This document shows, in pieces, positions 21,262 through 45,995 of a stretch of DNA of 64,000 nt. Below the pieces are notes generated by a model that was given only the letters and a program-made list of their open reading frames with translations, was not told the origin of the DNA and made no database searches. The stretch covers positions 62,001 through 126,000 of the forward strand of contig JAPOHD010000027.1 of the NCBI GenBank assembly GCA_026671195.1, given 5' to 3'. How positions within the stretch are numbered: the stretch's first letter is position 1; each line of letters starts with the position of its first letter. The DNA is from Draconibacterium aestuarii. GTDB taxonomy: Bacteria > Bacteroidota > Bacteroidia > Bacteroidales > Prolixibacteraceae. A program made the translations under genes and the position numbers.

Positions 21262-21287
21262 TCTTCAGAACATAAAAAACAAACAAT

Positions 21288-22484: not shown

Positions 22485-22499
22485 CCTAAATACACAATT

Positions 22500-25400
22500 A
22501 TGCTTCAAAATATTATAACATTCAGTATACGACAGAAATTTGTAGCGCTTTCGTTAGTGGTACTTATGGGAGTTGCAGGTTATTTTTCATTAATTCAGCT
22601 GCCCATTAATTCGTTGCCCGACGTTACGCCGGTGCAGGTTTTGGTAATTACAAAGGCTGGCCGCTATTCGCCTTTCGATGTAGAGAAGCTGGTGAGTTAT
22701 CCCATTGAAACGGCCATGAACGGTTTACCCGATGTGGCCGAAGTTCGGTCCATTTCGCAATTTGGTTTGTCGGCGGTTACGATTGAGTTTGAGGAGAAAA
22801 CCGATATCTTTTTTGCCCGGCAGATGGTAAGTCAGAGGCTGCAATCCATATCCGATGAGTTGCCGCCCGACGTATCCAATCCTCAGTTGGGTCCTATTAC
22901 AACAGCACTTGGCGAAATTTACCAGTATGTGGTTCGCGGCGAAAATTATTCATTGACAGAGTTACGTGAAATTCAGGACTGGCTTATTGCGCCACAGTTG
23001 AAAGTAGTAAAAGGTGTAACTGAAATAAATTCGTTTGGCGGATTTGTAAAACAATACAATGTGGTGGTGCAACCCGGTCGTTTGCGTTTGTTTGATATTG
23101 GTATTTCGGAAGTATTGGATGCCATCGCAAACAACAACAGCGTTTCGGGTGGTAATTTTTTGGAGCACAACGGCGAGCAGTTTATTATCCGTGGTTTTGG
23201 ACAGATCAATAAAATCGACGACATAAAAAATATCATCATTACCAATGTCGATAACAAACCTGTTTTTGTGCGCGATGTGGCCAGTGTTGAAATTGGTACA
23301 CAAATCAGGCAGGGAGGGGTTACGCAAGATGGTAAAGGCGAAATTGTAACCGGAATTGTAATGATGTTACGTGGTGGAAACGGCCGCCAGGTTATTGGAG
23401 CCATCGAAGAGAAAATTGAAAGTATAAACAGCAATTTGCCCGAAGGAGTGACGATTGAGAAATTTTACGATCAGTCGGACCTGATTAACCGGACTACAGC
23501 AACACTTTCAACTAACCTATTGGAAGGTGGGTTTTTGGTAATTGCTGTTTTGTTGTTTTTGCTGGGCGAAATTACCGGTGCTTTAATTGTTGCCATGGTT
23601 ATTCCGTTTTCAATGCTGTTTGCTTTTATCGGAATGCGCGAGTTTGGACTGGCAGCCAACCTGATGAGTTTGGGAGCCATCGACTTTGGAATGATTGTGG
23701 ATGGTTCGGTGGTAATGGTCGAGAACATTATTCATGGCCTTCAAAAAGACAAAAGTAAAAATAAGGATGAAGTGATACGAAAGGCTGCGCAGCAAGTGGC
23801 CCGGCCCATCTTTTTTGGTGTCCTTATTATTTTGATGGTTTATGTCCCCATAATGACATTTAGTGGAATGGAGGGGATATTATTCCGGCCCATGGCCATT
23901 ACCGTTGCTGCGGCTGTTCTGGGATCGTTGCTGCTGGCACTGATTTTTGTTCCCGCCATTTCAGCCATTGTCTTCCGAAAAGGAGTGAAAGTGCGCAAAA
24001 ATCACCTGATTAACTGGCTGAAACCCATATATACTAATAATCTTGGGAAATACATGGAACGGAAATGGTTTGTGGTTTCTGCAGCCGGTGCCATTTTTGT
24101 GGTTTCGCTCTTTTTAATGACGCGGCTTGGAACCGAATTCCTTCCCGAGTTGGACGAAGGTTCAATTCTGATTGAACAGGTGCGGATGCCATCGGTAACA
24201 CTCAACGAATCGATCGAGAATGCGAACTGGCTGGGAGGGAAACTGGTTGCTAATATTCCTGAAATACAAACAGTAGTTCCAAAAACCGGGCGATCAGATC
24301 TGGCAAACGATTGGATGGGGGTTCACCAAACCGATGTTTGGGTGGTTTTAAAACCGGAGGAAGAATGGCGAAAGGGAGTGGCAAAGGAGGATATAATTAC
24401 AAAAATTGAGCCTTATTTAAAAACTGAACCGGGGCTGGCGTATAATTTTACACAACCCATTGCCATGCGCGTTGATGAACTGACAAGTGGCGTAAAATCA
24501 GATTTGGCGGTAAAAATTTATGGTGAAGACCTGGATGTGTTGAGTGCCATTGGCGAACGCATTTCGGCCATGTTACCTGGAATGTCGGGAACCGATAATT
24601 TTTATGTGGAACAAACCGTAGGGCAACCTTATGTTACTATCGAAATCGACCGGGAAGCCGTGGCTTCGTTTGGTTTAAATGTAGACGATGTACAAAAAGT
24701 AATCGAAGCCGGAATTGGAGGCCAGGAAGTGAGCCAGTTGTACGAAGGTCAGCGGCGTTTTGGAATTGTGGTGCGTTACCCGGAAGATATTCGCAATCAA
24801 CTGCATAAAATTCAGGATGTGCCGGTGCATTTGCCTAATGGTGAGTTTGTCCCGCTAAAACGAGTGGCAAAAATAGAGTTGCAGGAGGGACCCCGCGAGA
24901 TTCAGCGTGAGAATGGCTGGCGCAGGCTGATCGTTGGAATAAACATTAAAAATATCGATCTGGGAACCTATGTCGCCAACCTTCAAAAAGATATAAAGTT
25001 GAAAGCCGAAATACCGGCCGGTTATTTTATTGATTATGGAGGAACTTTTGAAAATCAGCGACGTGCCATGCGTCATTTATTGCTGGTGGTTCCGCTATCC
25101 ATCTTTATTATTATTGGTTTGTTGTATCTGAACTTTGGAAGAATGCGATATGCCATCTTGATTTTGCTCAACCTGCCATTTGCACTTTCGGGAGGAGTTT
25201 TTTTACTGTGGATGCGAGGCATGTATTTATCGATTTCAGCAAGTATCGGTTTTGTGGCTTTGTTTGGTGTGGCGGTGTTAAATGGTATCGTTCTGGTCGA
25301 CCACATTAACGAACTGCGAAAAGAAAAGAAAGGCAACTTGAAAAAACTGATTTTGGAAGGATCGGCTGATCGACTTCGTCCTGTGTTGATGACCGCACTG

Positions 25401-25586
25401 GTGGCCAGTCTTGGTTTTATCCCAATGGCATTTAACACCGGGCCGGGTTCCGAAGTGCAGCGGCCTCTTGCAACTGTGGTTATCGGCGGATTGATTACAT
25501 CCACGTTTTTAACGCTTTTAGTACTTCCAATTATTTATTATTGGATGGAAAAACGTAGTGAAAGAAAACAACAAAATAATAGTTAG
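22500..25586 (+). CDS. czcA: CzcA-type heavy-metal RND efflux pump
   Basis: 1028 residues, normal length for an HME-RND pump, with twelve predicted helices in the usual 1-(loop)-6 / 7-(loop)-12 order. TM4 has the motif IDFGMIVDGSVVMVEN, giving D395, D401 and E408 with the same spacing as the essential D402, D408 and E415 of Cupriavidus CzcA, so divalent cation export (Co, Zn, Cd, Ni) is favoured over Cu/Ag. It completes the operon with the TolC-family and adaptor genes. The 3' end overlaps the convergent gene at 25583 by a few bases. Confidence 0.92.
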   Translation: MLQNIITFSIRQKFVALSLVVLMGVAGYFSLIQLPINSLPDVTPVQVLVITKAGRYSPFDVEKLVSYPIETAMNGLPDVAEVRSISQFGLSAVTIEFEEKTDIFFARQMVSQRLQSISDELPPDVSNPQLGPITTALGEIYQYVVRGENYSLTELREIQDWLIAPQLKVVKGVTEINSFGGFVKQYNVVVQPGRLRLFDIGISEVLDAIANNNSVSGGNFLEHNGEQFIIRGFGQINKIDDIKNIIITNVDNKPVFVRDVASVEIGTQIRQGGVTQDGKGEIVTGIVMMLRGGNGRQVIGAIEEKIESINSNLPEGVTIEKFYDQSDLINRTTATLSTNLLEGGFLVIAVLLFLLGEITGALIVAMVIPFSMLFAFIGMREFGLAANLMSLGAIDFGMIVDGSVVMVENIIHGLQKDKSKNKDEVIRKAAQQVARPIFFGVLIILMVYVPIMTFSGMEGILFRPMAITVAAAVLGSLLLALIFVPAISAIVFRKGVKVRKNHLINWLKPIYTNNLGKYMERKWFVVSAAGAIFVVSLFLMTRLGTEFLPELDEGSILIEQVRMPSVTLNESIENANWLGGKLVANIPEIQTVVPKTGRSDLANDWMGVHQTDVWVVLKPEEEWRKGVAKEDIITKIEPYLKTEPGLAYNFTQPIAMRVDELTSGVKSDLAVKIYGEDLDVLSAIGERISAMLPGMSGTDNFYVEQTVGQPYVTIEIDREAVASFGLNVDDVQKVIEAGIGGQEVSQLYEGQRRFGIVVRYPEDIRNQLHKIQDVPVHLPNGEFVPLKRVAKIELQEGPREIQRENGWRRLIVGINIKNIDLGTYVANLQKDIKLKAEIPAGYFIDYGGTFENQRRAMRHLLLVVPLSIFIIIGLLYLNFGRMRYAILILLNLPFALSGGVFLLWMRGMYLSISASIGFVALFGVAVLNGIVLVDHINELRKEKKGNLKKLILEGSADRLRPVLMTALVASLGFIPMAFNTGPGSEVQRPLATVVIGGLITSTFLTLLVLPIIYYWMEKRSERKQQNNS

Positions 25587-27483: not shown

Positions 27484-27963
27484 TTATATGGCTTCCAATC
27501 GTGCGCTTGTTATTAATTCTTTTCCAATCTGGATATACGAATTGGCACATCCAACCCGATTACAGGCACCAATAAACGAATCAAACTTTACTTCTTTGTC
27601 CAGAAAAAGTGCAAAAATATCTCCGCCACAGTGGCATTTCGAGAAAATCGGTAAGGCAGCATCACATTCAGGACAACTTAAGTTGTATTGAGTTCCTTCG
27701 GTCAGCTCAATTCCAATGGCAACACGCAATTCACATCCATACACCGGGCTTAACGCTATTTGTCCTGTTTTTTCGCCTTTCGAAATTTTAAGCAGAATTC
27801 CGTCGAACTCATTAAACCGGGCATTTTTTGTAATTAAATTGTGTCCGTTCGGACAATAACATTCCGTAAAAACAAGTAATTTCTCCTCATCGCAAATTGG
27901 CCGGTGCTTCTTTGGATTAGGAAAAATAAGCATGCCTTTTTTATCAAATATACTCATCTTCAT
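27484..27963 (-). CDS. Cysteine-rich hydrogenase-operon protein of unknown function
   Basis: 159 residues; not recognised. Ten cysteines occur, most in pairs: ECYCPNGH (about 35-42), LSCPECDAA, SKCHCGGD and ACNRVGC. They could form two zinc or iron-sulfur sites of rubredoxin or zinc-ribbon type. An N-terminal segment (IFPNPKKHRP) and a stretch GIELTEGTQYNLSC between the clusters are otherwise featureless; there is no signal peptide or helix. The 5' end overlaps the protease gene by about 20 bp, making it the last gene of the hydrogenase operon, so a role in cofactor delivery, maturation or electron transfer is inferred. A start two codons later (MSIFDKK) is possible. Confidence 0.7.
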   Translation of the reverse strand: MKMSIFDKKGMLIFPNPKKHRPICDEEKLLVFTECYCPNGHNLITKNARFNEFDGILLKISKGEKTGQIALSPVYGCELRVAIGIELTEGTQYNLSCPECDAALPIFSKCHCGGDIFALFLDKEVKFDSFIGACNRVGCANSYIQIGKELITSARLEAI

Positions 27964-28465
27964 TTTTGTTTTTAGGATGAAGAATTTCCGGAATCAGTTC
28001 ATTTAAAAGGGATACGATCTTTTCTTTGATTTCGTTGTATTTTATGGCCAATTCCTCTGTAAAATATTCTGAGAAGACCATGTCTTCTTTAATTTCTACA
28101 GTAATGATGTACATTTTTTCCGGAATTTTAAGATCGAGTGATTTTCCCAGTTCAAGTGCCGTTATAAAATTTGTGTCGTGTAGATTGGATAGGTGCAGTG
28201 TTTCTTTAAAATTAGCAGGAGTGTAGAGGTTTACTTCGCCTATTTGTCCGTCAAAAGATTTTATGGCATCGATAAAGATAACGGTTTTGTAGCCTTGAAT
28301 AAACTCCAGGATTTCAATGCCGCCGACATTTAATTTCTCGAAATCAACAGGCTTGTTACGGTATTTTTCTTTCAAAAAATCGCAGAGTTTCGGGCCAATG
28401 CCATCGTCGGTTAAAATGTCGTTTCCAACTCCAAGTACTAATATGTTTTTATCGTTTTTTGGCAT
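27944..28465 (-). CDS. [NiFe] hydrogenase maturation endopeptidase
   Basis: 173 residues of the HyaD/HycI/FrcD type peptidase family (M52). The N-terminus holds the signature VLGVGNDILTDDGIGP with the conserved Asp that binds nickel, then a second Asp in IFIDAIKS; the remaining alternating sheet/helix pattern fits. These enzymes remove a C-terminal peptide from the hydrogenase large subunit after nickel insertion. Here the substrate should be the protein encoded 22 bp upstream, whose C-terminus carries a 26-residue extension after DPCFSCATH. Confidence 0.93.
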   Translation of the reverse strand: MPKNDKNILVLGVGNDILTDDGIGPKLCDFLKEKYRNKPVDFEKLNVGGIEILEFIQGYKTVIFIDAIKSFDGQIGEVNLYTPANFKETLHLSNLHDTNFITALELGKSLDLKIPEKMYIITVEIKEDMVFSEYFTEELAIKYNEIKEKIVSLLNELIPEILHPKNKNEDEYI

Positions 28466-28487
28466 ATTTTATTTTACGAAAAAAGAG

Positions 28488-29951
28488 CTATTTTCGTTGT
28501 AGCGAACGGATTAAAGTTCCGTCTTTTTCGCGAATATTAACAATCATTGGCATTTCGCCCGGCAAGCTGTGTGTTGCACACGAGAAGCACGGATCGTAGG
28601 CCCGGAAAGCCATTTCAATCATATTCAGAATTCCGTCAGTAACCACAATTCCTTTTTTTATTAATCCTTGTGCTGCTTTTTTTAGCGACATACAAATGGC
28701 TGCATTGTTGTTGGTTGTTCCAACTATAATATTTGCTTTGGTTACAATGCCTCTTTCATCGGTAAAATAATGGTGGGTTAGAGTTCCACGCTGCGCTTCA
28801 ACAATCCCAATTCCTTCTTTTGGTATTTTTGTGATGGGAGTCCTTAGTTCTTTCCCTGTAATCTCTTTATCCGTTATCAATTCGTACATTCTTTCGGCCG
28901 AATACAACAACTCGATCAGGCGCGCCCAGTGCATGGCCAGGGTTGCATGAACCGGTTTGCCGCCCAGTACGCCGTACATTTTTTCGTATTCCTGCTGAGC
29001 CAGTGGCGTTGCCATTCCATCGGCAGCGTTTAGGCGCGAAAGGGGCGTGGCATGGTAAACGCCCGAATCGATTCCTTCAACAAATCCTTTCCATCCTATC
29101 TTTTTCAGAAATGGAAATTTCAGGTAGCTCCAGGGTTCCACTCTTTCCTCCACAAATTCACGATAATCTTCGGATTTGTATTTGCAGTGCTCGTTTCCTT
29201 CTGTATCAACCACCCGAACTTTGCCATCGTAAAAATTCACATGGTTGTTTTCATCGACTAATCCCATGGAATGAAGGTTTAAGGAGTAAGGGCCATTCAA
29301 AATAAGATCTACATATTCCTTATTTTCAAGCACAACATCTTCAAAAAGCTGAAGCGAAAATTGGCCAAACTCAATAAATCCCAAAGCCCGTTTTTCGATA
29401 TCTTCGCGCTGTTCTTCTGTAATTCCTTTTCGCACGCCGCCCGGCATGTTCATTACAACATGGGTTTGATGTCCGCCCAACATAGCTTGTATTTCCTGTG
29501 CCATCCGACGTTGCCGAATTACTTCAGTGCCGGTTTTTACGCCCACCTTGTTGATCACACCCAGAATGTTTCGTTGCGCTTTGGCAGCGGTAGGACCAAC
29601 TACAAAATCGGGGGCAGCAAGGGCATAGAAGTGTGCTGTGTGGCTGTGAATAAAATGAGCCATGTAAAACAATTCGCGCAATTTTTTAGCTGTGGGAGGT
29701 GGTTCAACTCCAAAAACCGCATCAATGGCTTTGCCCGATGCCATGTGGTGGCAACCCGGACATACTCCGCATATTTTGGTAACAATTTGCGACAATTCTT
29801 CAACAGGGCGGCCCTCGCAAAATTTCTCGAAACCACGCAACTCCGGCACCTGGAAGTAGACGTTGTCGACGTCGCCGGCATCATCCAGAAAAATTTCAAT
29901 TTTGCCGTGGCCTTCAAGTCGGGTTATAGGATCTATTGTTATCTGTTTCAT
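28488..29951 (-). CDS. mvhA: [NiFe] hydrogenase large subunit, group 3c (MvhA) type
   Basis: 487 residues from the ATG at 29949-29951; the open frame runs 26 codons further upstream, but those residues come from a repetitive intergenic sequence. The N-terminus MKQITIDPITRLEGHGK is the normal start of the family. Nickel-binding motifs: KICGVCPGCHH (C61, C64) and DPCFSCATH (C455, C458, H461). A C-terminal extension of 26 residues follows the second motif and would be removed by the protease encoded next. Overall look is that of F420-non-reducing (MvhA) hydrogenases, which pair with MvhG and MvhD. It catalyses reversible H2 oxidation. Confidence 0.93.
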   Translation of the reverse strand: MKQITIDPITRLEGHGKIEIFLDDAGDVDNVYFQVPELRGFEKFCEGRPVEELSQIVTKICGVCPGCHHMASGKAIDAVFGVEPPPTAKKLRELFYMAHFIHSHTAHFYALAAPDFVVGPTAAKAQRNILGVINKVGVKTGTEVIRQRRMAQEIQAMLGGHQTHVVMNMPGGVRKGITEEQREDIEKRALGFIEFGQFSLQLFEDVVLENKEYVDLILNGPYSLNLHSMGLVDENNHVNFYDGKVRVVDTEGNEHCKYKSEDYREFVEERVEPWSYLKFPFLKKIGWKGFVEGIDSGVYHATPLSRLNAADGMATPLAQQEYEKMYGVLGGKPVHATLAMHWARLIELLYSAERMYELITDKEITGKELRTPITKIPKEGIGIVEAQRGTLTHHYFTDERGIVTKANIIVGTTNNNAAICMSLKKAAQGLIKKGIVVTDGILNMIEMAFRAYDPCFSCATHSLPGEMPMIVNIREKDGTLIRSLQRK

Positions 29952-29968
29952 AATTTTGAGAATTGGTT

Positions 29969-29997
29969 GGAAGCCGGAAGTCCGAAGCTCGAAGCCA
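29969..29997. repeat. Short GGAAG-rich repeat fragment
   Basis: Sequence of the type GGAAGCCGGAAGTCCGAAGC in the 120-bp gap between the hydrogenase subunit genes. It resembles the longer repeat units at 45362-45630. The frame of the large subunit gene reads through it only upstream of the proposed start. Confidence 0.5.
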
Positions 29998-30070
29998 GTT
30001 TGTAGTGCCAGGAACATCCTTTTCTCCAAAATTTATTTTTTCTGCATCATACAATTTTCGTTTTTATTTT

Positions 30071-31084
30071 TCATTTCTGAAGTGGTGCTTGTGCCTGTAA
30101 ATTCTCCGGTATTTTTCGTCGAAGAATAGACGCCGGCATACTAAAGCGGTAGAAATAACCTGCCGGATCGATTACGTTCTCCAGAATTTTTTCGATGGTT
30201 TCCGAAGTATCCCCATCAATCATTGTGGCAACCGACGACATCATTTTTGCTCCCGGATCGATTACATCGGGAGCCGGTCCGTAACATCCGCGGCAGGGCG
30301 CATTTACTTCTATACAGCGGTGTCCGCAGCCGGAACGTGTTGCAGGTCCCATGCACAGAACTCCCTGTTCAAGAAAGCAGGTTTCTCCATCGTCGTTAAT
30401 TTCCCATGGTCGATGGAATTCCTTAATTGTTTTTTTATCTGATTTTTTTCTCGGACACTCGTCGCATTGCGATTTGTCGGTGGCGCCCAGCACTTTCCCC
30501 CTGGGGGGAAGTTCATCGCCGCTCACAATAGCCATAAAAACTTCTAATAAACGTTCGGTTTGTGGCGGGCATCCGGGAAGGTAATAGTCGACGTCAACTG
30601 TTTGAGCGAGTGTTCGTACATCGTTAAAGAATTCGGGTAAAGTAAGTGTGCCTTCTTTAACCTCATATTTTTCCAAAGGCCTGGTGTGGTTTGGGTTGTT
30701 GGTTGATTCCGATTCTTTGTAAATACGATCAAAGATTTCTGTTTTTGTAGACAAATTGGCTAAGCCGGGTATTCCGCCAAGGTGAGCACACGAACCATAA
30801 GCAACCAGGATTTTTGTTTTTTGTCGAAGCAAACGAGCCATGTGTTTGTTTTCGCTGTTTCGAATGGCGCCGTTAAACAGGGTCACGTCAATGTCCTGAT
30901 CGGGCATGGCCTCAACATCGTTGTATTTTATATCGAGTGCAATTGGCCAGAAAACGAGATCGGCATTGGCAACTACATCGAACAGTTTTTCGTGCACATC
31001 GAGCACCGAAACGCAACAGCCGCCACAGGCAGCTCCCCAGTAAACTGCGAGCTTTATTTTTGGTCTTTCATTTCTCTCCGCCAT
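30071..31084 (-). CDS. mvhG: [NiFe] hydrogenase small subunit, MvhG type
   Basis: 337 residues. N-terminal YWGAACGGC (C20, C23) and later PGCPPQ are the proximal-cluster motifs of small subunits; a Cys-rich C-terminal region (CDECPRKKS, LCMGPATRSGCGHRC, NAPCRGCYGP) carries further [4Fe-4S] ligands. There is no twin-arginine signal, so the enzyme stays in the cytosol, as in group 3 enzymes. The small subunit passes electrons from the NiFe site to MvhD. The mvhD gene is 11 bp upstream and the large-subunit gene downstream, the same order as in methanogen mvhDGA. Confidence 0.92.
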   Translation of the reverse strand: MAERNERPKIKLAVYWGAACGGCCVSVLDVHEKLFDVVANADLVFWPIALDIKYNDVEAMPDQDIDVTLFNGAIRNSENKHMARLLRQKTKILVAYGSCAHLGGIPGLANLSTKTEIFDRIYKESESTNNPNHTRPLEKYEVKEGTLTLPEFFNDVRTLAQTVDVDYYLPGCPPQTERLLEVFMAIVSGDELPPRGKVLGATDKSQCDECPRKKSDKKTIKEFHRPWEINDDGETCFLEQGVLCMGPATRSGCGHRCIEVNAPCRGCYGPAPDVIDPGAKMMSSVATMIDGDTSETIEKILENVIDPAGYFYRFSMPASILRRKIPENLQAQAPLQK

Positions 31085-31095
31085 AATTCTTCCTC

Positions 31096-31521
31096 CTAAG
31101 TATAAGTTTCAATCACATTTTTTATTTTACAGGGGCCCAGATGCCGGATGGTTTCGGTAAACGAGTCGGCCAGATTGGCGAATTGTTTTCCTTCACTGGC
31201 ACTGATCCAGTCGAGCCTGATCCTTTCGGGTCTGATACCCAGTTGCACGAAGTATTTTTTTAGCATGTTGTATCTTCTCAGGCATTTGTAATTGCCCGAT
31301 TGATAGTGACAATCGCCGGGATGACAGCCGCACAGCAAAACCCCATCGGCGCCATTTTTAAAGGCTTCCAATACAAAGGTCGGATCGATTCTTCCCGAAC
31401 ACATCACACGTATGATTCTGATATTGGGCGAATATTTCATTCGCGAAGTTCCTGCAAGATCGGCTCCGGTGTACGAGCACCAGTTGCATAAAAACGAAAC
31501 GATTGTTGGTTCAAAATCCAT
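31096..31521 (-). CDS. mvhD: MvhD-type hydrogenase iron-sulfur subunit
   Basis: 141 residues. Cysteine pattern [23 protein letters not shown] and [14 protein letters not shown] is the signature of MvhD, which holds a [2Fe-2S] cluster and links the hydrogenase to HdrA. In sulfate reducers the same domain is fused to the C-terminus of QmoB; here it is a separate gene only 3 bp after the 579-residue HdrA-like gene, so the two look like a split QmoB. Hence the inferred path is hydrogenase to MvhD to HdrA. Confidence 0.93.
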
Positions 31522-31524
31522 GGC

Positions 31525-33264
31525 TTACATTTTTTCAAATTTATTATCAGGCGACAATAAACCCTGTATTTGAGACAGGATTTGTTGATCGGTAAAATGC
31601 CTTGAACGGATTGCTCCGGTAGGGCAGGTAGATCCGCAGGTTCCGCATCCTTTGCACAATATTTCATTTACTTCGGATACGCCTTTTTCTTTGTTAAACG
31701 AGATGGCTTTGTAGGGGCAAACACTTACACAGGTCTGGCAGCCACAACAAATATCTTCGTTCACCGTGGCCGTAATTACATCCACTTCTATGGTTCCTAC
31801 GTGAATGGTGGCCAGAACACGAGCCGCCGCAGCTTTTGCCTGTGAAATAGAATCGGGAATGTCTTTTGGTGCCTGGCAGGTACCCACAATAAAAACGCCA
31901 TCGGAAGTGGTGGCAACCGGATCGAGTTTGGGGTGTTTTTCAATGAAAAAACTGTTCCCACACATGCTTATCCCGGCAATGTGTGAAATATCTTTTGCAT
32001 CGGCGTGCGATTCCATAGCCACCATCAGGATAACCAAATCGGCCGGCACTTCAACTTGTTCTTTCGAGAATTGTTCTGTAAACTCAATGAGCATGGAAAC
32101 TGCCTCTTCCCCGTTTGTTGAACGGATTTCCGGCAATCCGTTTTGCTGGTCAAAACGCAGAAATATTACATTTTTGCGTGATGTTTGGGTGTACAGTTCT
32201 TCGCAGCCTTTCCCGAAAGACCTCATGTCTGCATATAAATCGAAGATATTTGATTCCGGCAGAGCCGAACGTATTTGGTTGGCAAATTTTAGTGCGGTCA
32301 TACAACAGGTGCGCGAGCAGTATTCATGATAGTTGGCGTTGCGGCTGCCCACGCAGTGGATGATCGCAACATTTTTGGGTTCTTTCCCCTCGCAGGTTTC
32401 GATCCTGCCTTTTGCGAGCATTTTCTCAAATTCGAGTGACGTTACAACATCGGGCAGTTTGCCGTAGTTGTAGCTTGTGATTTCTGAAGGATCAAAAGGT
32501 TGTAATCCTGTGGCAACAATAATATTTCCAAATTTCAGCTTTGTTTCATCGCCGTTTGCCAGCTGTAGTGTTGATTGAAAATTTCCCATATAACCAAATA
32601 TCTGGTTAATCTGCATCGGTTTAAAAATCCTGATGTTTTTATGGTCTTCAACGTGTCGGATCATTGGTTTTATAAGTTGTCGGGCACTGTAAAAATGGGG
32701 GAAGGTCAGGTCCAACTGAGCCGCGTACCCACCTAGTTTTTTTGATTTTTCTACCAGGTAAACCTGTTTCCCGGCGTTTGCTATTTCAAGCGCGGCCGAC
32801 ATTCCGGCAACTCCACCGCCAATAACAAGCGTAGCCGGATTTACTTCTATCGTTCGTTTGTCGAGTGACTCGTGCCATTTTACCCGGTTAATTGCCGCAT
32901 GAACCAGTGAAACCGCCTTTTTTGTGGCTTTTTCACGATCGGTATGAACCCAGGCTACCTGTTCACGGATGTTTGCCATTTGAAACATCATGGGATTTAG
33001 CCCGGCTTTTGCCAGCGCTTTTCTGAATGTGAGCTCGTGAATGCGTGGTGAGCAGGCGGCAACAACCACCCGGTTTAAATGGTGCTGTTTGATATCGCGA
33101 ATGATCATATCCTGTCCGGGATCGGAACACATGTATTTATAGTTGCGGGCCACTGCAACATCCGGCAGAAATTTTATCTGGTCAACTACCTGATCAACAT
33201 CAACCATTTTTGCAATATTGGTGCCGCACCAGCAAACATAAACTCCTATTTTTATTTCTTCCAT
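31525..33264 (-). CDS. HdrA-like flavoprotein with C-terminal ferredoxin domain (QmoB/HdrA type)
   Basis: 579 residues of the heterodisulfide reductase subunit A family. The N-terminus YVCWCGTNI (C11, C13) and a further Cys (CSDPG) suit the HdrA N-terminal cluster; the FAD fold is IGGGVAGMSA (about 150). The usual Cys-rich TLDCxxC motif is replaced by PHFYSARQ and the central ferredoxin insert is absent, but C-terminal clusters CCGCQTCVSVCP and CKGCGTCGSTCP (about 506-550) are present. Conserved CVGSRNAN and CSRTCC motifs remain. HdrA carries the FAD where electron bifurcation can take place. It pairs with the other HdrA-like protein at 34425 and with MvhD just downstream. Confidence 0.9.
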   Translation of the reverse strand: MEEIKIGVYVCWCGTNIAKMVDVDQVVDQIKFLPDVAVARNYKYMCSDPGQDMIIRDIKQHHLNRVVVAACSPRIHELTFRKALAKAGLNPMMFQMANIREQVAWVHTDREKATKKAVSLVHAAINRVKWHESLDKRTIEVNPATLVIGGGVAGMSAALEIANAGKQVYLVEKSKKLGGYAAQLDLTFPHFYSARQLIKPMIRHVEDHKNIRIFKPMQINQIFGYMGNFQSTLQLANGDETKLKFGNIIVATGLQPFDPSEITSYNYGKLPDVVTSLEFEKMLAKGRIETCEGKEPKNVAIIHCVGSRNANYHEYCSRTCCMTALKFANQIRSALPESNIFDLYADMRSFGKGCEELYTQTSRKNVIFLRFDQQNGLPEIRSTNGEEAVSMLIEFTEQFSKEQVEVPADLVILMVAMESHADAKDISHIAGISMCGNSFFIEKHPKLDPVATTSDGVFIVGTCQAPKDIPDSISQAKAAAARVLATIHVGTIEVDVITATVNEDICCGCQTCVSVCPYKAISFNKEKGVSEVNEILCKGCGTCGSTCPTGAIRSRHFTDQQILSQIQGLLSPDNKFEKM

Positions 33265-33276
33265 TTTGAACAGTTT

Positions 33277-34428
33277 TTAATACGATACCGAGAGTTTCGA
33301 TTTCAATTGCAGCTCACGTGTTTTCTTTTTCATATTCGAGAAATAGATGGCTAGCGGCCGGTACGCCAGGTGCGACCACTTCGAAAAAGCAACAAATGTG
33401 ACCACCATTGGAATTTCAAAGGCAAGGTGAGCAACATAGGTATAATAAGTGGCGAAAGGCAATCCGTTTATTCTGAAAATATGGATCAGGATTCCGGAAA
33501 ATGCAACAAGGAAAAGCAATACCACAAAGATCCAGTCGCTGTGGTGTGAGTGTTTAAATATTTGTTTTTTCTTCCGGATTCGGCCTATCATAAAGAAGAT
33601 TGTCCCGAAAAGAAAACCAGCTGTAATTATATACCCGATCAAACGCTGGGGATGGTACCAGACATTAATGTTGTCGGTTTGAAACCAGCTTAAAAAGAAG
33701 ATGATAAGAACGAACATGGTAACATAACCGATCATTAAAAACCAGTGACCAAACCAGTACATCCGGCTTTTGTTGCACTTTGAGAAACGAAGCTGAGTGC
33801 CGAAGTTGAGCAGCGCTTCACCAATTTCGGTGAAATATAAATACCATGGAATGTGTACTGTTTTATCTTTCAGGACAACCTTGTAATACATGTTGATCAT
33901 ATTGGTTAATAAAAAGAAGGAGAGCGTTAGCAGCACGATGTGGTCGATTCCGGCGATTATTTCTGCCGGAGCAAAAGTGTTAAGTCGGACACCGCCATCG
34001 GAGGTTAGCTCGGTTATCATGGGACCGCCAAAAATCAGAAAGGCCGCAACAACACTTAAGAATAAAACGAGCATAACAACGATGTGCGCTTTTGCCGACT
34101 TGTACAGCATTCCCGAAAATCCGGTCCAGTCGTACACCGAAGTGAGGTAGCGGCGCAGTGTCATCATTATTTCTCCGGGGTTGGCATCTCTCGGACAGGT
34201 ATCCGAACAGTCGCCGCAATAGTAACACAGCCACGGATCGGCATTGCTGGCCAGGCTTTCGGTCAGTCCCATTTGGGCTTGCCGGATCGCTTTCCGTGGG
34301 AACAGTATTTCCCGTTCGGTGAGCTGGCAGGTGGCTGTACAATTCCCGCAATGGTAACAGTCGTTCCAGTCTTTCGCTCCAAATTTCAGGAGTTCCTTTT
34401 TTAATTCAGGATTTATTCGCTGACTCAT
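33277..34428 (-). CDS. QmoC-like HdrC-cytochrome b fusion, membrane subunit
   Basis: 383 residues. An HdrC-like N-terminal half has two [4Fe-4S] motifs: CYHCGNCTATC (C24-C34) and CYYCGDCSDTCPR (C68-C78). Five to six transmembrane helices follow (about 117-135, 160-185, 220-245, 265-285, 300-320, 335-355) with histidines suited to heme b (GHWFLMIGY, SGILIHIF, AHLAFE). This is the layout of QmoC, where an HdrC module is fused to an HdrE/NarI-like cytochrome b that reacts with menaquinone. The 5' end overlaps the upstream HdrA-like gene by 4 bp. It ties the cytosolic hydrogenase-Hdr module to the quinone pool. Confidence 0.9.
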   Translation of the reverse strand: MSQRINPELKKELLKFGAKDWNDCYHCGNCTATCQLTEREILFPRKAIRQAQMGLTESLASNADPWLCYYCGDCSDTCPRDANPGEIMMTLRRYLTSVYDWTGFSGMLYKSAKAHIVVMLVLFLSVVAAFLIFGGPMITELTSDGGVRLNTFAPAEIIAGIDHIVLLTLSFFLLTNMINMYYKVVLKDKTVHIPWYLYFTEIGEALLNFGTQLRFSKCNKSRMYWFGHWFLMIGYVTMFVLIIFFLSWFQTDNINVWYHPQRLIGYIITAGFLFGTIFFMIGRIRKKKQIFKHSHHSDWIFVVLLFLVAFSGILIHIFRINGLPFATYYTYVAHLAFEIPMVVTFVAFSKWSHLAYRPLAIYFSNMKKKTRELQLKSKLSVSY

Positions 34429-36242
34429 TTTCTGTCCTCCATTTTAAGTGATAAGTTTTTTGCCCGCGTTCTGATTTCGGCAAGTGGCAATTCGGGGATA
34501 TTCTTTCTCATGCTTGTTCGAACAATGTGTTGCAGCACTTCCGAGGCGGCAGCCGATGCCTGTGCCACGGTGTCGGGAATATCTTTTGGCCCCTGGCATA
34601 ACCCGGCAATCAAAACACCTTCAGCAAAAGTATTTACAGGGCTGGTTACATAATTGGCTTCATCCATCCAACCGTCGCTGTCGGTTGTTACGCCACATAG
34701 TTTGGCAATTTCAGCCGATCCAGCTGCCGGTTCGAGTCCAACCGATAAAATAACCATATCTACCTTTTGCTCTAAAAGTCGTCTTCCGTCAATGTCTTCA
34801 CTTCTGATAATCAAATTGTTCTCGTCCATGCGAACTTCTGCCGGTTTGCCCCGAAGAAGATGAACGCCTTCACTTTTAATTCGCTCGTAAAAAGCCTCGT
34901 AGCCTTTCCCAAACGAGCGCATGTCGATATAATATTCGTACACCTCGGCATCAGGGATTTTTTCTTTTACAAGGTGAGCCAGTTTCAGCGAGTACATACA
35001 ACACACCCGCGAACAGTATTGGTTGTGGTTAATATCGCGGCTGCCAACACAGTGAATAATGCCAACTCGTTCGGGCGAATCGCTTTGAGGGCTGAAAATC
35101 CAGTCGCCTTTTTTATTTTGTGTTCGGAAGGTAATTTTGCCTTCCGTTGGGCCTGCAGCATTTGTCAGTCGTTCGAATTCGAGCGAGGTTAAAACATTCG
35201 GGAAGGAGCCGTATCCATAGTTGGCAAGTTTTGTTGCTTCGAAAGTTTTAAATCCGGTGGCGATAATTATATTTCCAACACACAGTTCAATTTCCGAATC
35301 TTTTTCATCGAGATCGATACAACCCGGCACCGGGCAGTTTTTCACGCAAACACCACACTTTTTGCCCTGCACGTAACGACACGCTTCGGCATCGATCAAA
35401 TATTTGTTGGGAACCGCCTGCGGAAAAGGAATGTAAATGGCTTTACGGAAAGTTGTGCCGACATCGAATTCGCTGCGTGCTTTGCCTGGGCATTTTTCGG
35501 CACACGATCCACATCCAATACATTTTGAAAGACTTACCCGCCGTGCTTTTTGTAGTACTTTTACCTTGAAATTTCCGGGAGTGCCGGTTACACTTTGAAC
35601 TTCGCTGTAGGTTAACAAATTAATACTGGGATGTTGCCCAATTTCAACCATTTTGGGCGTTAAAATACAAGCGGCGCAGTCGAGTGTAGGAAAGGTTTTA
35701 TCAAACATGGCCATGTGCCCGCCAATGGTTCCGGTTCGTTCAATCAAATGTACTTTGTGGTTGGCATTGGCAATTTCCAGCGCTGCCTGAATTCCAGCAA
35801 TCCCGGCACCAATGATCAGTGTTTCGGTGCAAACTTTTTTCTCTTCATCGGGCAAAATATCTTCCAGGGCAACATTGTAAATGGCGCACGACAGTAACGC
35901 TTTCCCCAGTTCAGTGTTGCCACTTTCCAGAATACCGTGTTCCTTAAAATCTTCGAGAAGGATATTTTCAACATTAAGCTGAAGGTTGGAAAAAACGCGC
36001 GCAAAAATGGGTTTTACCATTCCTGTGTCGTAGCCGGCAATTATTATTCGAGAGAGTTTGTACTTTTGAATTTGTGATTTCAGATATTCGATATCCCACA
36101 AGGGAAATGTTTTTGAATCCCAAACCACAGCCACATCCTCGTGCGACTCCGAATAGGCAAATAATTCGGTAAAATTAAGTTTGTCTAAATGGCCGTTTCC
36201 GGGGTGATACAGGAACATCCCGGTTGTTTCTTGTGTTCTCAT
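34425..36242 (-). CDS. HdrA-like flavoprotein with central ferredoxin insert (QmoA/HdrA type)
   Basis: 605 residues of the HdrA family. The first 135 residues look like a degenerate N-terminal domain without the YVCxCG cluster. The FAD fold is IIGAGIAGIQAALE (143-156); TLDCAACILTPKM (C189, C192) is the canonical HdrA motif. A central dicluster insert follows: CIGCGSCAEKCPG (C241, C244, C247, C251) and CGVCVKNCPVPGC (C296-C308). CVGSRDIN and CSRVCC are conserved. No C-terminal ferredoxin is present. Its cluster set complements that of the 579-residue paralogue. It is the first gene of the operon, preceded by three FNR-like sites, and its end overlaps the qmoC-like gene by 4 bp. Confidence 0.9.
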   Translation of the reverse strand: MRTQETTGMFLYHPGNGHLDKLNFTELFAYSESHEDVAVVWDSKTFPLWDIEYLKSQIQKYKLSRIIIAGYDTGMVKPIFARVFSNLQLNVENILLEDFKEHGILESGNTELGKALLSCAIYNVALEDILPDEEKKVCTETLIIGAGIAGIQAALEIANANHKVHLIERTGTIGGHMAMFDKTFPTLDCAACILTPKMVEIGQHPSINLLTYSEVQSVTGTPGNFKVKVLQKARRVSLSKCIGCGSCAEKCPGKARSEFDVGTTFRKAIYIPFPQAVPNKYLIDAEACRYVQGKKCGVCVKNCPVPGCIDLDEKDSEIELCVGNIIIATGFKTFEATKLANYGYGSFPNVLTSLEFERLTNAAGPTEGKITFRTQNKKGDWIFSPQSDSPERVGIIHCVGSRDINHNQYCSRVCCMYSLKLAHLVKEKIPDAEVYEYYIDMRSFGKGYEAFYERIKSEGVHLLRGKPAEVRMDENNLIIRSEDIDGRRLLEQKVDMVILSVGLEPAAGSAEIAKLCGVTTDSDGWMDEANYVTSPVNTFAEGVLIAGLCQGPKDIPDTVAQASAAASEVLQHIVRTSMRKNIPELPLAEIRTRAKNLSLKMEDRK

Positions 36243-36556: not shown

Positions 36557-37264
36557 CTACTTAAACATCTTCGCAGTTCTTTTCAATCCCTCTATATCGG
36601 AAAGAATAATCGACCGGCCGTCAATTTCAACCAACTTTTCTTCTTTAAAATCGTGAAGTAGCCTGATTATGGTTTCGGTGGCGGTACCCACAATATTTGC
36701 CAGATCTTCGCGCGGTAACGAAATGTTGGGTTTAATTTCATTTTCACCGTCGGGTTTAAACACGCGGTTTAAAATCAACAACGATTCTGCCAGTCGCTCG
36801 CGAACCGGTTTTTGCGCAATCGAGATGATTTTATCCTCGGCATCTTTTAACAATTCGCACAAATGCTCTACAATTTCAGCATTCATTTTGGGGTGTTTCT
36901 CAATTAAATGAAAAAAGAAGGATTTGTTGATGAAACAAATGACTGAATCTTCAAGAGTGGCAGCCGAAGCCGAGTAACGTTCGCCTTTTAACAACGCACG
37001 AATTCCCAGTAAACTTCCTGCCGTTGCCAGACGCAGAATTTGTTCTTTTCCGTCCATTCCCACCCGGTAAATTTTTGCCCGGCCTTGCTCCAGACAATAA
37101 ACACCGGTTGAAGTTCTTCCTTCATAAAAAATAATGTGACCTTTTTTGTAAAAGTTACAGGTTTTGTTTTCGCTCAGGTTTTTTAAATCGAAGCTGTCGA
37201 GTTCATTAAAAAACGAAAGCGCCTTGCTCAAACAAGAGGGGCAGGATGGCCTGATGACTTTCAT
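36557..37264 (-). CDS. Crp/Fnr-family transcriptional regulator
   Basis: 235 residues. A cyclic-nucleotide-binding-like barrel (about 30-140) with FYEGRTSTGVYCLEQG is followed by an HTH_Crp domain (about 155-225). The recognition helix TETIIRLL keeps the Glu and Arg that in FNR (VETISRLL, E209 and R213) read the TGA half site. The N-terminus has CPSC (C8, C11), plus C36, C57 and C110; the interval C11 to C110 equals that of C23 to C122 in E. coli FNR, though the exact ligand pattern differs. An Fe-S redox/oxygen sensor is plausible but not proven. It lies directly upstream of the hydrogenase-Hdr operon and probably controls it. Confidence 0.87.
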   Translation of the reverse strand: MKVIRPSCPSCLSKALSFFNELDSFDLKNLSENKTCNFYKKGHIIFYEGRTSTGVYCLEQGRAKIYRVGMDGKEQILRLATAGSLLGIRALLKGERYSASAATLEDSVICFINKSFFFHLIEKHPKMNAEIVEHLCELLKDAEDKIISIAQKPVRERLAESLLILNRVFKPDGENEIKPNISLPREDLANIVGTATETIIRLLHDFKEEKLVEIDGRSIILSDIEGLKRTAKMFK

Positions 37265-39326: not shown

Positions 39327-40255
39327 TGAAACGCCTGTGGATTATAGTAATACTCACTTTCGGACTTCTGGTTCCTGCTCGTGTTTTGGCACAGGATAGG
39401 CAAACCGAAATCGATTCGTTGATAACTTTAATGCGGACAGCCGGGCGGGAATGGAACAATTATGCGGGACCTCTGATAAAAATCGGAGAACCGGCGGTTC
39501 CGGCACTGATTAAAAATGTGCAGGATAAAAATCTGAAACAGTGGAACCGGCGAATTGCAATGATGACGCTGAACCAGATTCATTCGCCACAATGGATGGC
39601 TCCTGCACGAGCTATTCTGTTCGACGAAAATGAAGACCCGGTATTGCGAAATCATGCCACAGCAGCGCTCAGGGGTGAAAATCTTTCGGATGTAAAAACA
39701 GAATTATGGAGACTGTTTACTGATGCTGACAATCAGTTTCACAAGTCGAACCTGGCTCATTTGCTTGTAGGTGCCGATACCGCTTTGGCTTACAGAGCAT
39801 TTTATGAATTGTATACAACACAGGACGGGCATATACAGCGAAGTGCACTTTTGAATCTTGCCCGACTGAGGCCCGAAGAATCAACCTCCTGGTTTTTAAA
39901 AGCACTGCAGGGCAACGACTGGATGACTGCAAACCTGGCAATGGACAGTCTTATAGGTTCCAGCTTCTTTGATGCCGAAGTTTTACTTTCTGTTTATAAA
40001 AAACCGAATGTTAATGAAACGGTGCAGTGGAGGATAATTTATGTATTGGGGCATCGGCAGGATGCAGCGATTGTTCCGGTTTTGGTGGAGGCGTTGCAAA
40101 ATAAATACTGGCTGGTTCATACCGAAGCGACGGTGGGGTTGTGTCGTTTTGAACCTGAAGTAGTGCTGAATGAATTGAAAAATCTGGGAAATGATTCCAG
40201 ACCTTTTGTGCAGAAGAATTCAAAATGGATTACTCAACAATTAAAAAGGGAGTAG
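39326..40255 (+). CDS. Exported HEAT-repeat protein
   Basis: 309 residues with a signal peptide ending at RVLAQ. From about residue 40 on it consists of alpha-helical repeats of 30-40 residues typical of HEAT/PBS-lyase-like scaffolds, with repeated elements AVPALIKNV, PVLRNHATAALRGE, TAYRAFYEL-type helices and PVLVEALQNKYWLVHTEA. Such scaffolds bind other proteins. It is coupled to the lipoprotein upstream (overlap TAATG), and the hypF gene starts 60 bp downstream in the same direction. Function unknown; a possible link to the hydrogenase maturation genes is only positional. Confidence 0.75.
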   Translation: MKRLWIIVILTFGLLVPARVLAQDRQTEIDSLITLMRTAGREWNNYAGPLIKIGEPAVPALIKNVQDKNLKQWNRRIAMMTLNQIHSPQWMAPARAILFDENEDPVLRNHATAALRGENLSDVKTELWRLFTDADNQFHKSNLAHLLVGADTALAYRAFYELYTTQDGHIQRSALLNLARLRPEESTSWFLKALQGNDWMTANLAMDSLIGSSFFDAEVLLSVYKKPNVNETVQWRIIYVLGHRQDAAIVPVLVEALQNKYWLVHTEATVGLCRFEPEVVLNELKNLGNDSRPFVQKNSKWITQQLKRE

Positions 40256-40314
40256 ATATTCAGGCACTTAAAATAATTTATGCTGAATGGAAAATAATTA
40301 ATGATGGTTTGAAT

Positions 40315-42603
40315 ATGAGCAGGCAAGCAACAAAAAATGTTCGGATTAAAATCAGGGGGCTGGTTCAGGGAGTTGGCTTTCGTCCGTTTGTATATCGGGC
40401 GGCCGAAAAAAACAGGATCTCCGGTTGGGTAAAAAACAGGCAGGACGGATTGCTGATTGAAGCTTCAGGAAAAGAGGAAAGTTTAAATTCGTTCCTGATC
40501 AACCTGCGAAATAATTCTCCGGCAGCGGCACAAATTCAGAATATTCAGGTGAATGCTTCTAAAAAAGCACATAAAAAGGGATTTCAAATCGATTCAAGCG
40601 ACGAAAATCCCAATCAAAGGGAGATCACACAAATTGGCCCCGACATTGCAGTTTGCACCGAGTGTCTCGAAGATATGAAAACGCAGGCGTACCGAGTAAA
40701 TTACCCGTTTATTAACTGCACCAATTGCGGCCCGAGGTTTTCCATTATTCGCAACCTGCCTTACGACCGTTCTAAAACCACCATGGATGTTTTTGAAATG
40801 TGCCCGGTTTGCAAAAGCGAGTACGAAGATCCGCACAACCGCCGATTTCATGCGCAGCCGGTGGCCTGTTTAAATTGTGGACCTCATTACAAAATCAAAA
40901 CAAAGGAACAAGAAACTGAAATTCAGGACGAGGTGCTTGAGCTTACTTCCGGAATGATCGATGAAGGTAAAATTGTTGCTATAAAAGGAATTGGTGGGTT
41001 TTTTATTGCCTGCGATGCCACTAATAGAGAAACGGTGAAACAACTCCGCGAACTAAAACTCCGTGAGGGAAAACCGTTTGCCGTAATGTTTCAGGATGTT
41101 CATTCCGTTCAGAATTATTGTTACCTGAATACTGAAGAGAAAGAAATTCTAACGTCGTGGAGACGGCCGATCGTAATTTTAAAATCGAAAAAGAAATTGC
41201 CTGAAAGCGTTAGTCGCGGAATCAGAACGGTGGGGGCTTTGCTGCCATACATGCCTTTTCATTTTTTGCTTTTTGAAAAGTTAAAAACCCGTGCACTAAT
41301 TTTTACCAGCGGTAATTTCCCCGACGAGCCAATTGTGGTTTCAAATACAAAGGCAGAAGAGGAGCTGGCTAAAATTTGCGACGCGGTGGTTTCGTACAAC
41401 CGCCGGATTTACAACCGAACGGATGATTCGGTGTTGCAGGTTATAAATAAAAAGCCACGATTAATGCGGCGTTCGAGAGGGTGGGTGCCCAACCCGGTTT
41501 TTCTTGATGTCAAAGTCGACGGGATTCTGGCAACCGGAGCCGAACTAAAAAACACCTTTTGTATTGGCAAAGGAAACCAGGCAATTCTCAGTCAACACAT
41601 TGGCGATTTAAAAGATTTTGAAACCTGGTCTTTTTATGAGAAGAACATCAGGCAGTTTAAAAAGATGTTTCAAGTGGAGCCGGAATTAATAGCTGCCGAC
41701 TTTCATCTCGATTATCTTTCAACAAAATACGCCCTGGAAAGTGGTTTGCCCCTGAATCGGGTACAGCATCACCATGCACACATTGCTTCTGCCATGGCCG
41801 AAAACGGGCTCGATGAAAAAGTGATCGGAATTAGTTTTGACGGAACCGGTTTAGGCGACGACGGAAACAGCTGGGGTTCCGAATTTTTTATCTGCGATTT
41901 GCTGGAATACGAGCGGAGATTGCATTTTGAATACATCCCACTGCCCGGAGGCGACCTGGCTGTGAAAGAGCCCTGGCGGATGGCTGTTTCTTGGTTGTAC
42001 AAAGTTTTTAACCGCGAGTTTTTAAAATTCTCTTTACCCTTTCTGAAATCGGTTTCGAAAAACGACCTGAACCGGGTGATCAAATCCATTGACAATAAAA
42101 TAAACGCTCCGCTAACGTGTGGAGCAGGCCGCTTGTTCGATGCTGTTTCAGCTCTTTTGGAATTGTGCCCACACTCCACTTTTGAAGCCGAAGCGCCCAT
42201 GCGACTTGAAAACAGAATTGCCCGTGATGTGGATGAAACCTATTCATGGAAAATTTCCGAAACGATAGAGTTTTCAGAAATGTTTATCGAAATTATTTCT
42301 GATTTGCTTCAAAAAATAAATCCGGCGGTTATTTCCGCAAAGTTTCACAATACGATTTCTGAAATAGTAGTTGAAGGTGCAGATATAATCAGGAAGGAAA
42401 CAGGATTCGGAATAGTGGTTTTGTCGGGTGGCACTTTCCAGAATAAATACCTGACTGAACGCACCGAGCAAAAGTTACGGGCAAGGGGTTTTAAAGTTTT
42501 CAGCAATTGCTCTGTACCTTGTAACGATGGAGGAATTTCGCTGGGGCAGTTGGTAGTGGCAGCCAAGAGGAGAAGTGTGCAGCCTCAATTGCAGTTTATA
42601 TAA
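40315..42603 (+). CDS. hypF: HypF carbamoyltransferase
   Basis: 762 residues from the ATG at 40315; the longer frame starting at 40225 lies inside the HEAT gene and does not align with the family. Order of parts: acylphosphatase domain with GLVQGVGFRPFVYR, two zinc-finger pairs (CTECLEDM with CTNCGPR; CPVCKSEY with CLNCGPH), YrdC-like domain (about 215-400), and a Kae1/HypF carbamoyltransferase domain with HHHAHIASAM. HypF uses carbamoyl phosphate to make the carbamoyl adenylate passed to HypE for the cyanide ligands of the NiFe centre. It heads the hypFCDEAB cluster. Confidence 0.96.
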   Translation: MSRQATKNVRIKIRGLVQGVGFRPFVYRAAEKNRISGWVKNRQDGLLIEASGKEESLNSFLINLRNNSPAAAQIQNIQVNASKKAHKKGFQIDSSDENPNQREITQIGPDIAVCTECLEDMKTQAYRVNYPFINCTNCGPRFSIIRNLPYDRSKTTMDVFEMCPVCKSEYEDPHNRRFHAQPVACLNCGPHYKIKTKEQETEIQDEVLELTSGMIDEGKIVAIKGIGGFFIACDATNRETVKQLRELKLREGKPFAVMFQDVHSVQNYCYLNTEEKEILTSWRRPIVILKSKKKLPESVSRGIRTVGALLPYMPFHFLLFEKLKTRALIFTSGNFPDEPIVVSNTKAEEELAKICDAVVSYNRRIYNRTDDSVLQVINKKPRLMRRSRGWVPNPVFLDVKVDGILATGAELKNTFCIGKGNQAILSQHIGDLKDFETWSFYEKNIRQFKKMFQVEPELIAADFHLDYLSTKYALESGLPLNRVQHHHAHIASAMAENGLDEKVIGISFDGTGLGDDGNSWGSEFFICDLLEYERRLHFEYIPLPGGDLAVKEPWRMAVSWLYKVFNREFLKFSLPFLKSVSKNDLNRVIKSIDNKINAPLTCGAGRLFDAVSALLELCPHSTFEAEAPMRLENRIARDVDETYSWKISETIEFSEMFIEIISDLLQKINPAVISAKFHNTISEIVVEGADIIRKETGFGIVVLSGGTFQNKYLTERTEQKLRARGFKVFSNCSVPCNDGGISLGQLVVAAKRRSVQPQLQFI

Positions 42604-42632
42604 AAAGTACCGAAGGGATTTAATAAAAATAA

Positions 42633-42652
42633 CCCCGGACTGAAGTCCGGGG
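42633..42652 (+). terminator. GC-rich hairpin between hypF and hypC
   Basis: CCCCGGACT-ga-AGTCCGGGG, a perfect 9-bp stem with a 2-nt spacer, 30 bp after the hypF stop. No clear T tract follows, so it may be an attenuator or RNA-stabilising hairpin rather than a full terminator. The hypF and hypC genes are 177 bp apart. Confidence 0.55.
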
Positions 42653-42780
42653 ATAAGAGATAAGAGGGAGAGTCGGCACAATCGGAAAGTACAGTAAAGT
42701 GTAATAGCAACATGTGCCGAAATTGCTCAAGTTTGATTGGAGCACGGAATTAATAAATAGACAATAATAAGTAATCAATT

Positions 42781-43041: not shown

Positions 43042-43106
43042 GTCACAAAGGAGAATATGTAAACAATGTCTCACCCGATAAACGGGCTGAAATAAATAGT
43101 AGGCAG

Positions 43107-44183: not shown

Positions 44184-44341
44184 AAAGTGATCAGTGATCA
44201 GTTGCAGTAGGCAGTTTTGTTTGACGTTCATTGGAATTGAAGAGCCCGGAAAGGGTAAATGAATTTAAGCAGTATTTGATTTACAATTTTAAAATAGAAT
44301 AGTTTAACATTTTTCCTGTTTGCCAATAATGAATTAGAAAC

Positions 44342-45630: not shown

Positions 45631-45646
45631 CTAGTAACTATAAATT

Positions 45647-45985: not shown

Positions 45986-45995
45986 GATTTGTTCC

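Follow-up and report, generated by a model that had tools for sequence, protein, structure and literature searches.

A bacterial Mvh-type hydrogenase operon with paired HdrA proteins and a QmoC-like membrane arm: a candidate H2:menaquinone oxidoreductase in Bacteroidota

Hydrogenases of the Mvh type have been connected with Qmo-type membrane proteins in archaeal genomes. Candidatus Methanoglobus hypatiae highly expresses a cluster of MvhAGD, two HdrA proteins and a QmoC-HdrC fusion without HdrB; its description cites the same cluster in Ca. M. nevadensis and proposes bifurcation of H2 electrons to menaquinone and ferredoxin (PMC10945360). Mvh with a QmoB homologue was tentatively suggested in Archaeoglobus sulfaticallidus (PMC3949148). 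Among bacteria, Ca. Symbiobacter mobilis is described as having a group 3c Mvh hydrogenase and HdrA without HdrB or HdrC, with NADH (reduced nicotinamide adenine dinucleotide) as the proposed partner (PMC4053972). EtfABCX, which couples NADH oxidation to reduction of ferredoxin and menaquinone, offers a precedent (PMC10734219). Here, we analyze a 64,000-nucleotide stretch (the window) of the Draconibacterium aestuarii genome (GenBank assembly GCA_026671195.1, contig JAPOHD010000027.1, positions 62,001 to 126,000), in which eight codirectional genes on the minus strand (27484-36242) encode a bacterial relative of the archaeal systems. Judging from its genes, we lean toward reading it as an H2:menaquinone oxidoreductase of the Mvh-HdrA type that is attached to the membrane, faces the cytoplasm and bifurcates electrons to ferredoxin.

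Composition of the complex

The earlier note, made from the sequence alone, had placed two HdrA-like flavoproteins, a QmoC-like protein, MvhD, MvhG, MvhA, a maturation protease and a Cys-rich protein in one operon. All are present on the minus strand. The genes for the QmoC-like protein and HdrA1 overlap by 4 nucleotides, followed by gaps of 12 (QmoC-HdrA2), 3 (HdrA2-MvhD), 11 (MvhD-MvhG) and 119 (MvhG-MvhA) nucleotides. An alignment of four QmoC sequences was used to scan named genomes, and we examined the best 80 of at least 505 relatives. All six core genes were present in 32 of these 80 loci, some of them cut within the last gene (29 loci by open reading frame [ORF] thresholds plus L063, L064 and L103, where MvhD was found by tblastn). 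Another 13 loci were partial, all stopping at a contig end, and 35 had other arrangements. The gene set, for which the earlier note had suggested a search of all genomes, thus recurs across genomes, and a chance neighborhood was rejected because the order is found in 32 of the 80 loci.

The hydrogenase is group 3c-like (Mvh/Vhu), as indicated by the two NiFe-site Cys pairs of MvhA together with MvhG and MvhD; the Vhu equivalog cutoffs were not reached. MvhA (28488-29951; 487 residues) matches PF00374 (128.6 bits) and NF041785 VhuA (378.5 bits; cutoff, 800), and its C61, C64, C455, C458 and H461 are conserved in 29 of 29 rows. An upstream TTG would give a 513-residue ORF, and the ATG at 29951 gives the 487 residues that match relatives. 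MvhG, the small subunit (30071-31084; 337 residues), matches PF01058 (84.9 bits) and NF045875 VhuG (234.5 bits; cutoff, 450). MvhD, the [2Fe-2S] connector (31096-31521; 141 residues), matches PF02662 (187.5 bits) and keeps seven Cys in 35/35 rows. This hydrogenase is the only [NiFe] one of the genome.

The two flavoproteins divide between them the domains of methanogen HdrA, which is described as carrying a cluster at its N terminus and two ferredoxin domains, one inserted and one C-terminal (PMC12054007; also seen in our alignments). HdrA1 (34425-36242; 605 residues; phmmer match to 5odc_A, E = 2.4e-134) has a flavin adenine dinucleotide (FAD) domain with an inserted 2x[4Fe-4S] ferredoxin domain and lacks the N-terminal cluster Cys and the C-terminal ferredoxin domain. 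HdrA2 (31525-33264; 579 residues; phmmer match to 8rvu_a in two stretches, E = 1.1e-142) has the N-terminal cluster, an FAD domain without the insert and a C-terminal 2x[4Fe-4S] domain. After proteins shorter than 500 residues were dropped (a few loci contribute two rows), all eight cluster Cys of the HdrA1 insert were conserved in 42/42 rows, as were the cluster Cys of HdrA2. In HdrABC-MvhAGD, the inserted domain is the ferredoxin site, and E356 and K409 mark the bifurcating flavin (PMC9430772). Their equivalents, E357/K420 in HdrA1 and E280/K326 in HdrA2, are each found in 42 of 42 rows, so that both residues of bifurcating HdrA are present in all 84.

The QmoC-like protein (33277-34428; 383 residues) joins an HdrC-type 2x[4Fe-4S] domain to a membrane domain with five hydrophobic segments. 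Across 47 rows, eight cluster Cys and five His are conserved in 95% or more. In its structure model (predicted local distance difference test [pLDDT] score, 85.2), the N-terminal part best matches HdrC (5odc_C; E = 0.021; probability, 1.00); the heme number and quinone site of the protein are putative. It scores 195.5 bits with the QmoC equivalog NF038018, below the cutoff of 300 bits, compared with 384 (G019) and 360.2 bits for real QmoC proteins. In a QmoC tree, which omits L030 because of a stop, a single clade (support, 99) takes in 45 of the 46 hydrogenase-linked rows. Outside it, on a long branch, lies an extra copy without its own hydrogenase, part of a diverged HdrA1-QmoC-HdrA2 set that faces a complete operon (L065:1367-6086, minus strand). 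Two rows with giant HdrA lie outside likewise; in these loci (L164:1682-10414 and L092:6661-14409), a QmoC-like gene accompanies a giant fused HdrA (1,490 and 1,098 residues) and MvhDGA. With MvhA identities of only 44 to 47%, these loci form an Mvh-QmoC arrangement of their own, distant from the clade of the window.

The earlier note saw neither HdrB nor AprAB in the window; we agree, and for HdrB and AprA the absence extends to the whole genome (6.37 Mb; estimated 100% complete). PF02754, the CCG domain, occurs in one protein of 237 residues on contig C61, which is not the contig of the operon. Among NCBIfam models, it fits the C-terminal part of LdhH best (191.1 bits, below the cutoff), and the HdrB models give at most 32.8 bits. 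We therefore rejected an HdrB elsewhere in the genome: by PF02754 and the HdrB models none was found, the sole CCG protein not being HdrB-like. The same search recovered an HdrB-like gene in G072, and the absence holds for the window's genome only, as further CCG proteins occur in G019 and G082. Lacking an HdrB with CCG domains, the complex falls outside MvhADG-HdrABC. AprA was not found in the window's genome (33.8 bits with the aprA model; cutoff, 641.75) or in G082.

A congener, G019, has the same operon and also a true aprA-qmoA-qmoB-qmoC locus, in which AprA adjoins this separate QmoABC, and which served as our reference. Its loci L023, L024 and L025 show that one genome can hold the hydrogenase-linked complex together with another HdrA-HdrA-QmoC locus and the true AprA-QmoABC locus. 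The QmoC-like protein is 25% identical to real QmoC. HdrA1 is 36% identical to real QmoA and 46% identical to HdrA of an Mvh-HdrABC operon; for HdrA2, the values are 29% with real QmoB and 43 to 50% with HdrA of an Mvh-HdrABC operon. We built an unrooted HdrA tree of 60 proteins from the window, 14 of the 45 hydrogenase-linked named loci, 10 of the 32 loci of a hydrogenase-less sister class (see below) and references comprising two QmoA, two QmoB and HdrA of HdrABC. HdrA1 and HdrA2 each form their own clade (100/99), apart from QmoA, QmoB and HdrABC-type HdrA; the pair thus does not fall within any characterized complex included, and the placement that would have undone the earlier note's proposal was not found among these. 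The closest neighbor of HdrA2 is the long sister-class HdrA (99/97). Another branch (99/95) has HdrA1 on the same side as QmoA, QmoB and the short HdrA of that class.

These results also bear on how Qmo-like the complex is. The earlier note equated HdrA2 plus MvhD with a split QmoB; this survives as an analogy of domain order and was rejected as homology on the identities and the tree. Its picture of a group 3c-like hydrogenase on a Qmo-type arm stands insofar as two HdrA proteins join the hydrogenase to a QmoC-type arm, and fails as identity with the Qmo subunits. With a subthreshold QmoC score, no AprA in the genome and an HdrA pair outside QmoA and QmoB, the complex is not QmoABC.

The sister class has an HdrA-HdrA-QmoC set and an MvhD-like gene without a hydrogenase (e.g., L053:3493-9302, L052:3870-11161 and L067:5648-11158). 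Of its 32 loci, 24 contain TusA-like genes and 17 contain DsrE-like genes (L053 was checked with Pfam); the 45 hydrogenase-linked named loci contain neither. It looks like a sulfur-carrier-fed Qmo-like complex. Among its HdrA rows, taken from the 32 loci at 400 to 480 residues (short) and 600 to 760 residues (long), all 18 short proteins have both the Glu and the Lys. Of 27 long ones, 4 have the Glu and 1 has the Lys, which is missing in the other 26.

Distribution and exchange of acceptor arms

The distribution of the operon is sporadic yet widespread. According to record titles, the 45 hydrogenase-linked loci are from Bacteroidota, except L097 and L099 (Chlorobiota), L045 (Aminicenantes) and L059 (SAR324; partial). 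A search of 101 relatives of the genome found MvhA with at least 76% identity in G019, G072, G074 (partial) and G082, as well as in the genome itself. An MvhA-like match at an E value of 1e-60 was present in 33 of 395 genomes of the phylum; apart from the window's own, nine of these reach at least 56% identity. In G082, contig C35 (L026) carries two tandem copies in different order, MvhDGA-HdrA1-QmoC-HdrA2 and HdrA1 (cut)-QmoC-HdrA2-MvhDGA-protease.

The neighborhoods (15 to 20 kb) of these nine MvhA genes were read by eye and with the CCG motif, and no full QmoC was found in them. HdrC-, HdrB- and HdrA-like genes lie beside MvhA in four (L154, L157, L158 and L159), two CCG-bearing proteins, one a membrane protein and the other an Fe-S protein, in two (L160 and L161), and NuoE/NuoF-like genes with HdrA in three (L153, L155 and L156). 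G072 has an hdrC-hdrB-hdrA-mvhD-mvhG-mvhA operon whose MvhA is nested in the QmoC-linked clade (100/99) as sister to L081 (100/92), and its MvhD lies outside the QmoC-linked MvhD group (group support of 94 in a quick tree). A single-origin MvhA clade (support, 99) had been considered and failed once this nested, hdrCBA-linked MvhA was added. Because HdrB/CCG or NuoE/NuoF-like genes take the place of QmoC and one hdrCBA operon includes an MvhA of the QmoC lineage, the acceptor arm looks exchangeable. On the simplest reading of the trees, the hydrogenase was probably swapped between an HdrABC arm and the HdrA1-HdrA2-QmoC arm.

Electron flow and its alternatives

Our preferred reading predicts the following path. 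MvhA would split H2 and pass electrons through the clusters of MvhG to the [2Fe-2S] center of MvhD. From there they would enter the C-terminal ferredoxin domain of HdrA2 and then the flavins of the HdrA1-HdrA2 pair. The high-potential electrons would reach b hemes and menaquinone by way of the HdrC-like portion of the QmoC-like subunit. The low-potential ones would leave at the ferredoxin domain inserted in HdrA1 and reduce ferredoxin, which Rnf can use. Formation of one complex, this path and the heme content are likewise predictions. The H2:menaquinone coupling proposed by the earlier note is likely, given the C-terminal ferredoxin domain of HdrA2, the HdrA1 insert and the QmoC-like membrane arm, as well as two HdrA proteins and no HdrB. 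We are fairly confident that a quinone is the electron acceptor, and we rate bifurcation to ferredoxin as somewhat probable.

The genome also encodes RnfC, five POR-family domains, menA, cydA and four [FeFe] hydrogenase H-domains. With potentials of -414 mV for H2, -74 mV for menaquinone and -500 mV for ferredoxin (drawn from PMC10734219 and PMC9304861), joint reduction of menaquinone and ferredoxin by H2 was computed to be downhill above about 5 Pa H2 and to reverse below it, the crossover lying at 0.2 to 21 Pa across the potentials tried. The net direction would thus be H2 uptake above a few Pa H2, becoming reversible below.

Several points weigh against this reading. The membrane domain of the QmoC-like protein has no strong structural match (none at E = 0.001), the weak ones including NarI. 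All 80 named records are metagenome-assembled genomes (MAGs), and the swap with hdrCBA rests on a single MAG contig. True QmoA and QmoB of G019 also hold both the Glu and the Lys in our alignments; as real Qmo proteins of the same genus have these residues, and confurcation there is merely proposed, the residues do not prove bifurcation. H2 oxidation with menaquinone alone yields -65.6 kJ per H2 at 1 bar, so nothing forces ferredoxin coupling. On sequence, bifurcation and the direction of flow are predictions.

The strongest rival is a plain H2:menaquinone oxidoreductase in which the HdrA flavins do no more than pass electrons on from MvhD to the QmoC-like subunit. Besides being very exergonic, this arrangement has a parallel in real QmoABC, which, with the same Glu and Lys, links menaquinol to adenosine 5'-phosphosulfate (APS) reductase (PMC2702500) and for which confurcation has been proposed only (PMC10553843). 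We nevertheless think it unlikely: every row retains the HdrA1 insert with all eight Cys and the Glu and Lys of both flavins, and the sister class shows that these two residues can be lost.

A complex that mainly evolves H2, confurcating electrons from menaquinol and reduced ferredoxin at very low H2 in a syntrophy-like manner, seems improbable. It is thermodynamically possible below the computed crossover, and the POR-family domains and RnfC fit it, but the four [FeFe] H-domains already provide routes to H2, and the bd oxidase subunit offers another sink for menaquinol. That the acceptor is another protein in trans (e.g., a CCG protein or a soluble dehydrogenase), with the QmoC-like subunit as an anchor only, is very improbable: HdrA modules are described as taking many partners (PMC12054007) and one CCG protein exists, but it is not HdrB-like and sits on another contig, and the QmoC-like subunit retains all cluster Cys and five His.

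Returning to the bifurcating H2:menaquinone oxidoreductase, we can extend it, tentatively, to a bacterial respiratory bifurcator. In this account, two bifurcation-type flavins over the asymmetric HdrA1-HdrA2 pair would couple H2 to menaquinone and ferredoxin, reversibly near a few Pa H2. The complex may have arisen by exchange of arms on a common Bacteroidota hydrogenase, and its HdrA-HdrA-QmoC core would be shared by a sister complex fed by sulfur carriers.

Neighboring genes and comparison with known systems

The operon ends with a hydrogenase maturation protease (27944-28465, minus strand; 173 residues; TIGR00072, 86.5 bits, above the cutoff of 47.45) and a Cys-rich accessory protein (27484-27963, minus strand; 159 residues). 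The C-terminal extension of MvhA past its DPCxxCxxH motif would be a target for such a protease. The Cys-rich protein is an orphan family by Pfam and NCBIfam, with no match to either, and its structure model (pLDDT, 79.1) has no match in the PDB at E = 0.001. Relatives occur in 7 of the 80 named loci and in L187; seven Cys are invariant across the eight aligned rows, and only some loci have the gene next to this hydrogenase.

A Crp/Fnr-type regulator gene (36557-37264, minus strand; 235 residues; PF00027 and PF13545) precedes the operon and likely controls it. Such a gene lies within 2.5 kb upstream of HdrA1 in 18 of 33 cases with at least 1.6 kb of room, and its C8, C11, C57 and C110 are present in all 18; the four conserved Cys would fit an oxygen-sensing FNR. 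Upstream of HdrA1, an FNR-box-like pattern gave no palindrome in the window and three among the 18 upstream stretches. On the plus strand, a hypFCDEAB set (40225-46904) adjoins the operon, giving the locus all that a [NiFe] enzyme requires. hypF (40225-42603), hypC (42781-43041), hypD (43107-44183) and hypA (45647-45985) score above their Pfam cutoffs, and hypE (44342-45361; AIRS domains) and hypB (46107-46904; CobW/HypB/UreG domain) were assigned with the help of context. Near hypB, a weakly DsbD-like membrane protein (47439-48146, minus strand; 24.0 bits, just below the cutoff) is perhaps a nickel transporter; in L160 and L161, inspection by eye showed look-alikes beside hyp genes. Ahead of the operon lie two RND-type metal efflux clusters (7190-14119 and 20020-25586; by eye).

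If our preferred reading is true, H2 oxidation in a large bacterial group would feed both the quinone pool and low-potential ferredoxin, and H2 could fund Rnf-driven ion pumping or biosynthesis beyond serving as respiratory fuel. The bacterial operons provide sources for testing a mechanism hitherto proposed from archaeal genomes. The natural set of arms on related hydrogenases (HdrBC, NuoEF-like and QmoC) may help to clarify how the acceptor arm sets the outcome of bifurcation.

Among the open-licence literature matches listed, we found no bacterial Mvh-QmoC complex and no biochemical test of such a complex. Compared with methanogen MvhADG-HdrABC, the complex shares the hydrogenase, MvhD and an HdrA flavoprotein with E356/K409 equivalents, but HdrB is absent, HdrA is split into two complementary proteins, and a QmoC-like membrane arm is present. 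With QmoABC-AprAB of G019 (L025), it shares two HdrA-type proteins, both with the Glu and Lys, and a protein of the HdrC-cytochrome b type. It differs in having a hydrogenase, a separate MvhD, no aprA and HdrA clades of its own, at identities of 25, 36 and 29% to QmoC, QmoA and QmoB. The bacterial group 3c hydrogenase and HdrA without HdrB are common to Ca. Symbiobacter mobilis, in whose cited description QmoC is not mentioned. The closest likeness in gene content, as far as the published description goes, is to the Archaeoglobi Mvh-Qmo-Hdr cluster (PMC10945360): MvhAGD, two HdrA proteins, a QmoC-HdrC fusion, no HdrB and the same functional proposal, in an archaeal host. The kind of complex is thus already known as a proposal from archaea, and the window holds a bacterial relative of it; what is new is that the lineage is bacterial and spread through Bacteroidota, that its HdrA pair is asymmetric and that its hydrogenase was probably swapped with an HdrABC operon.

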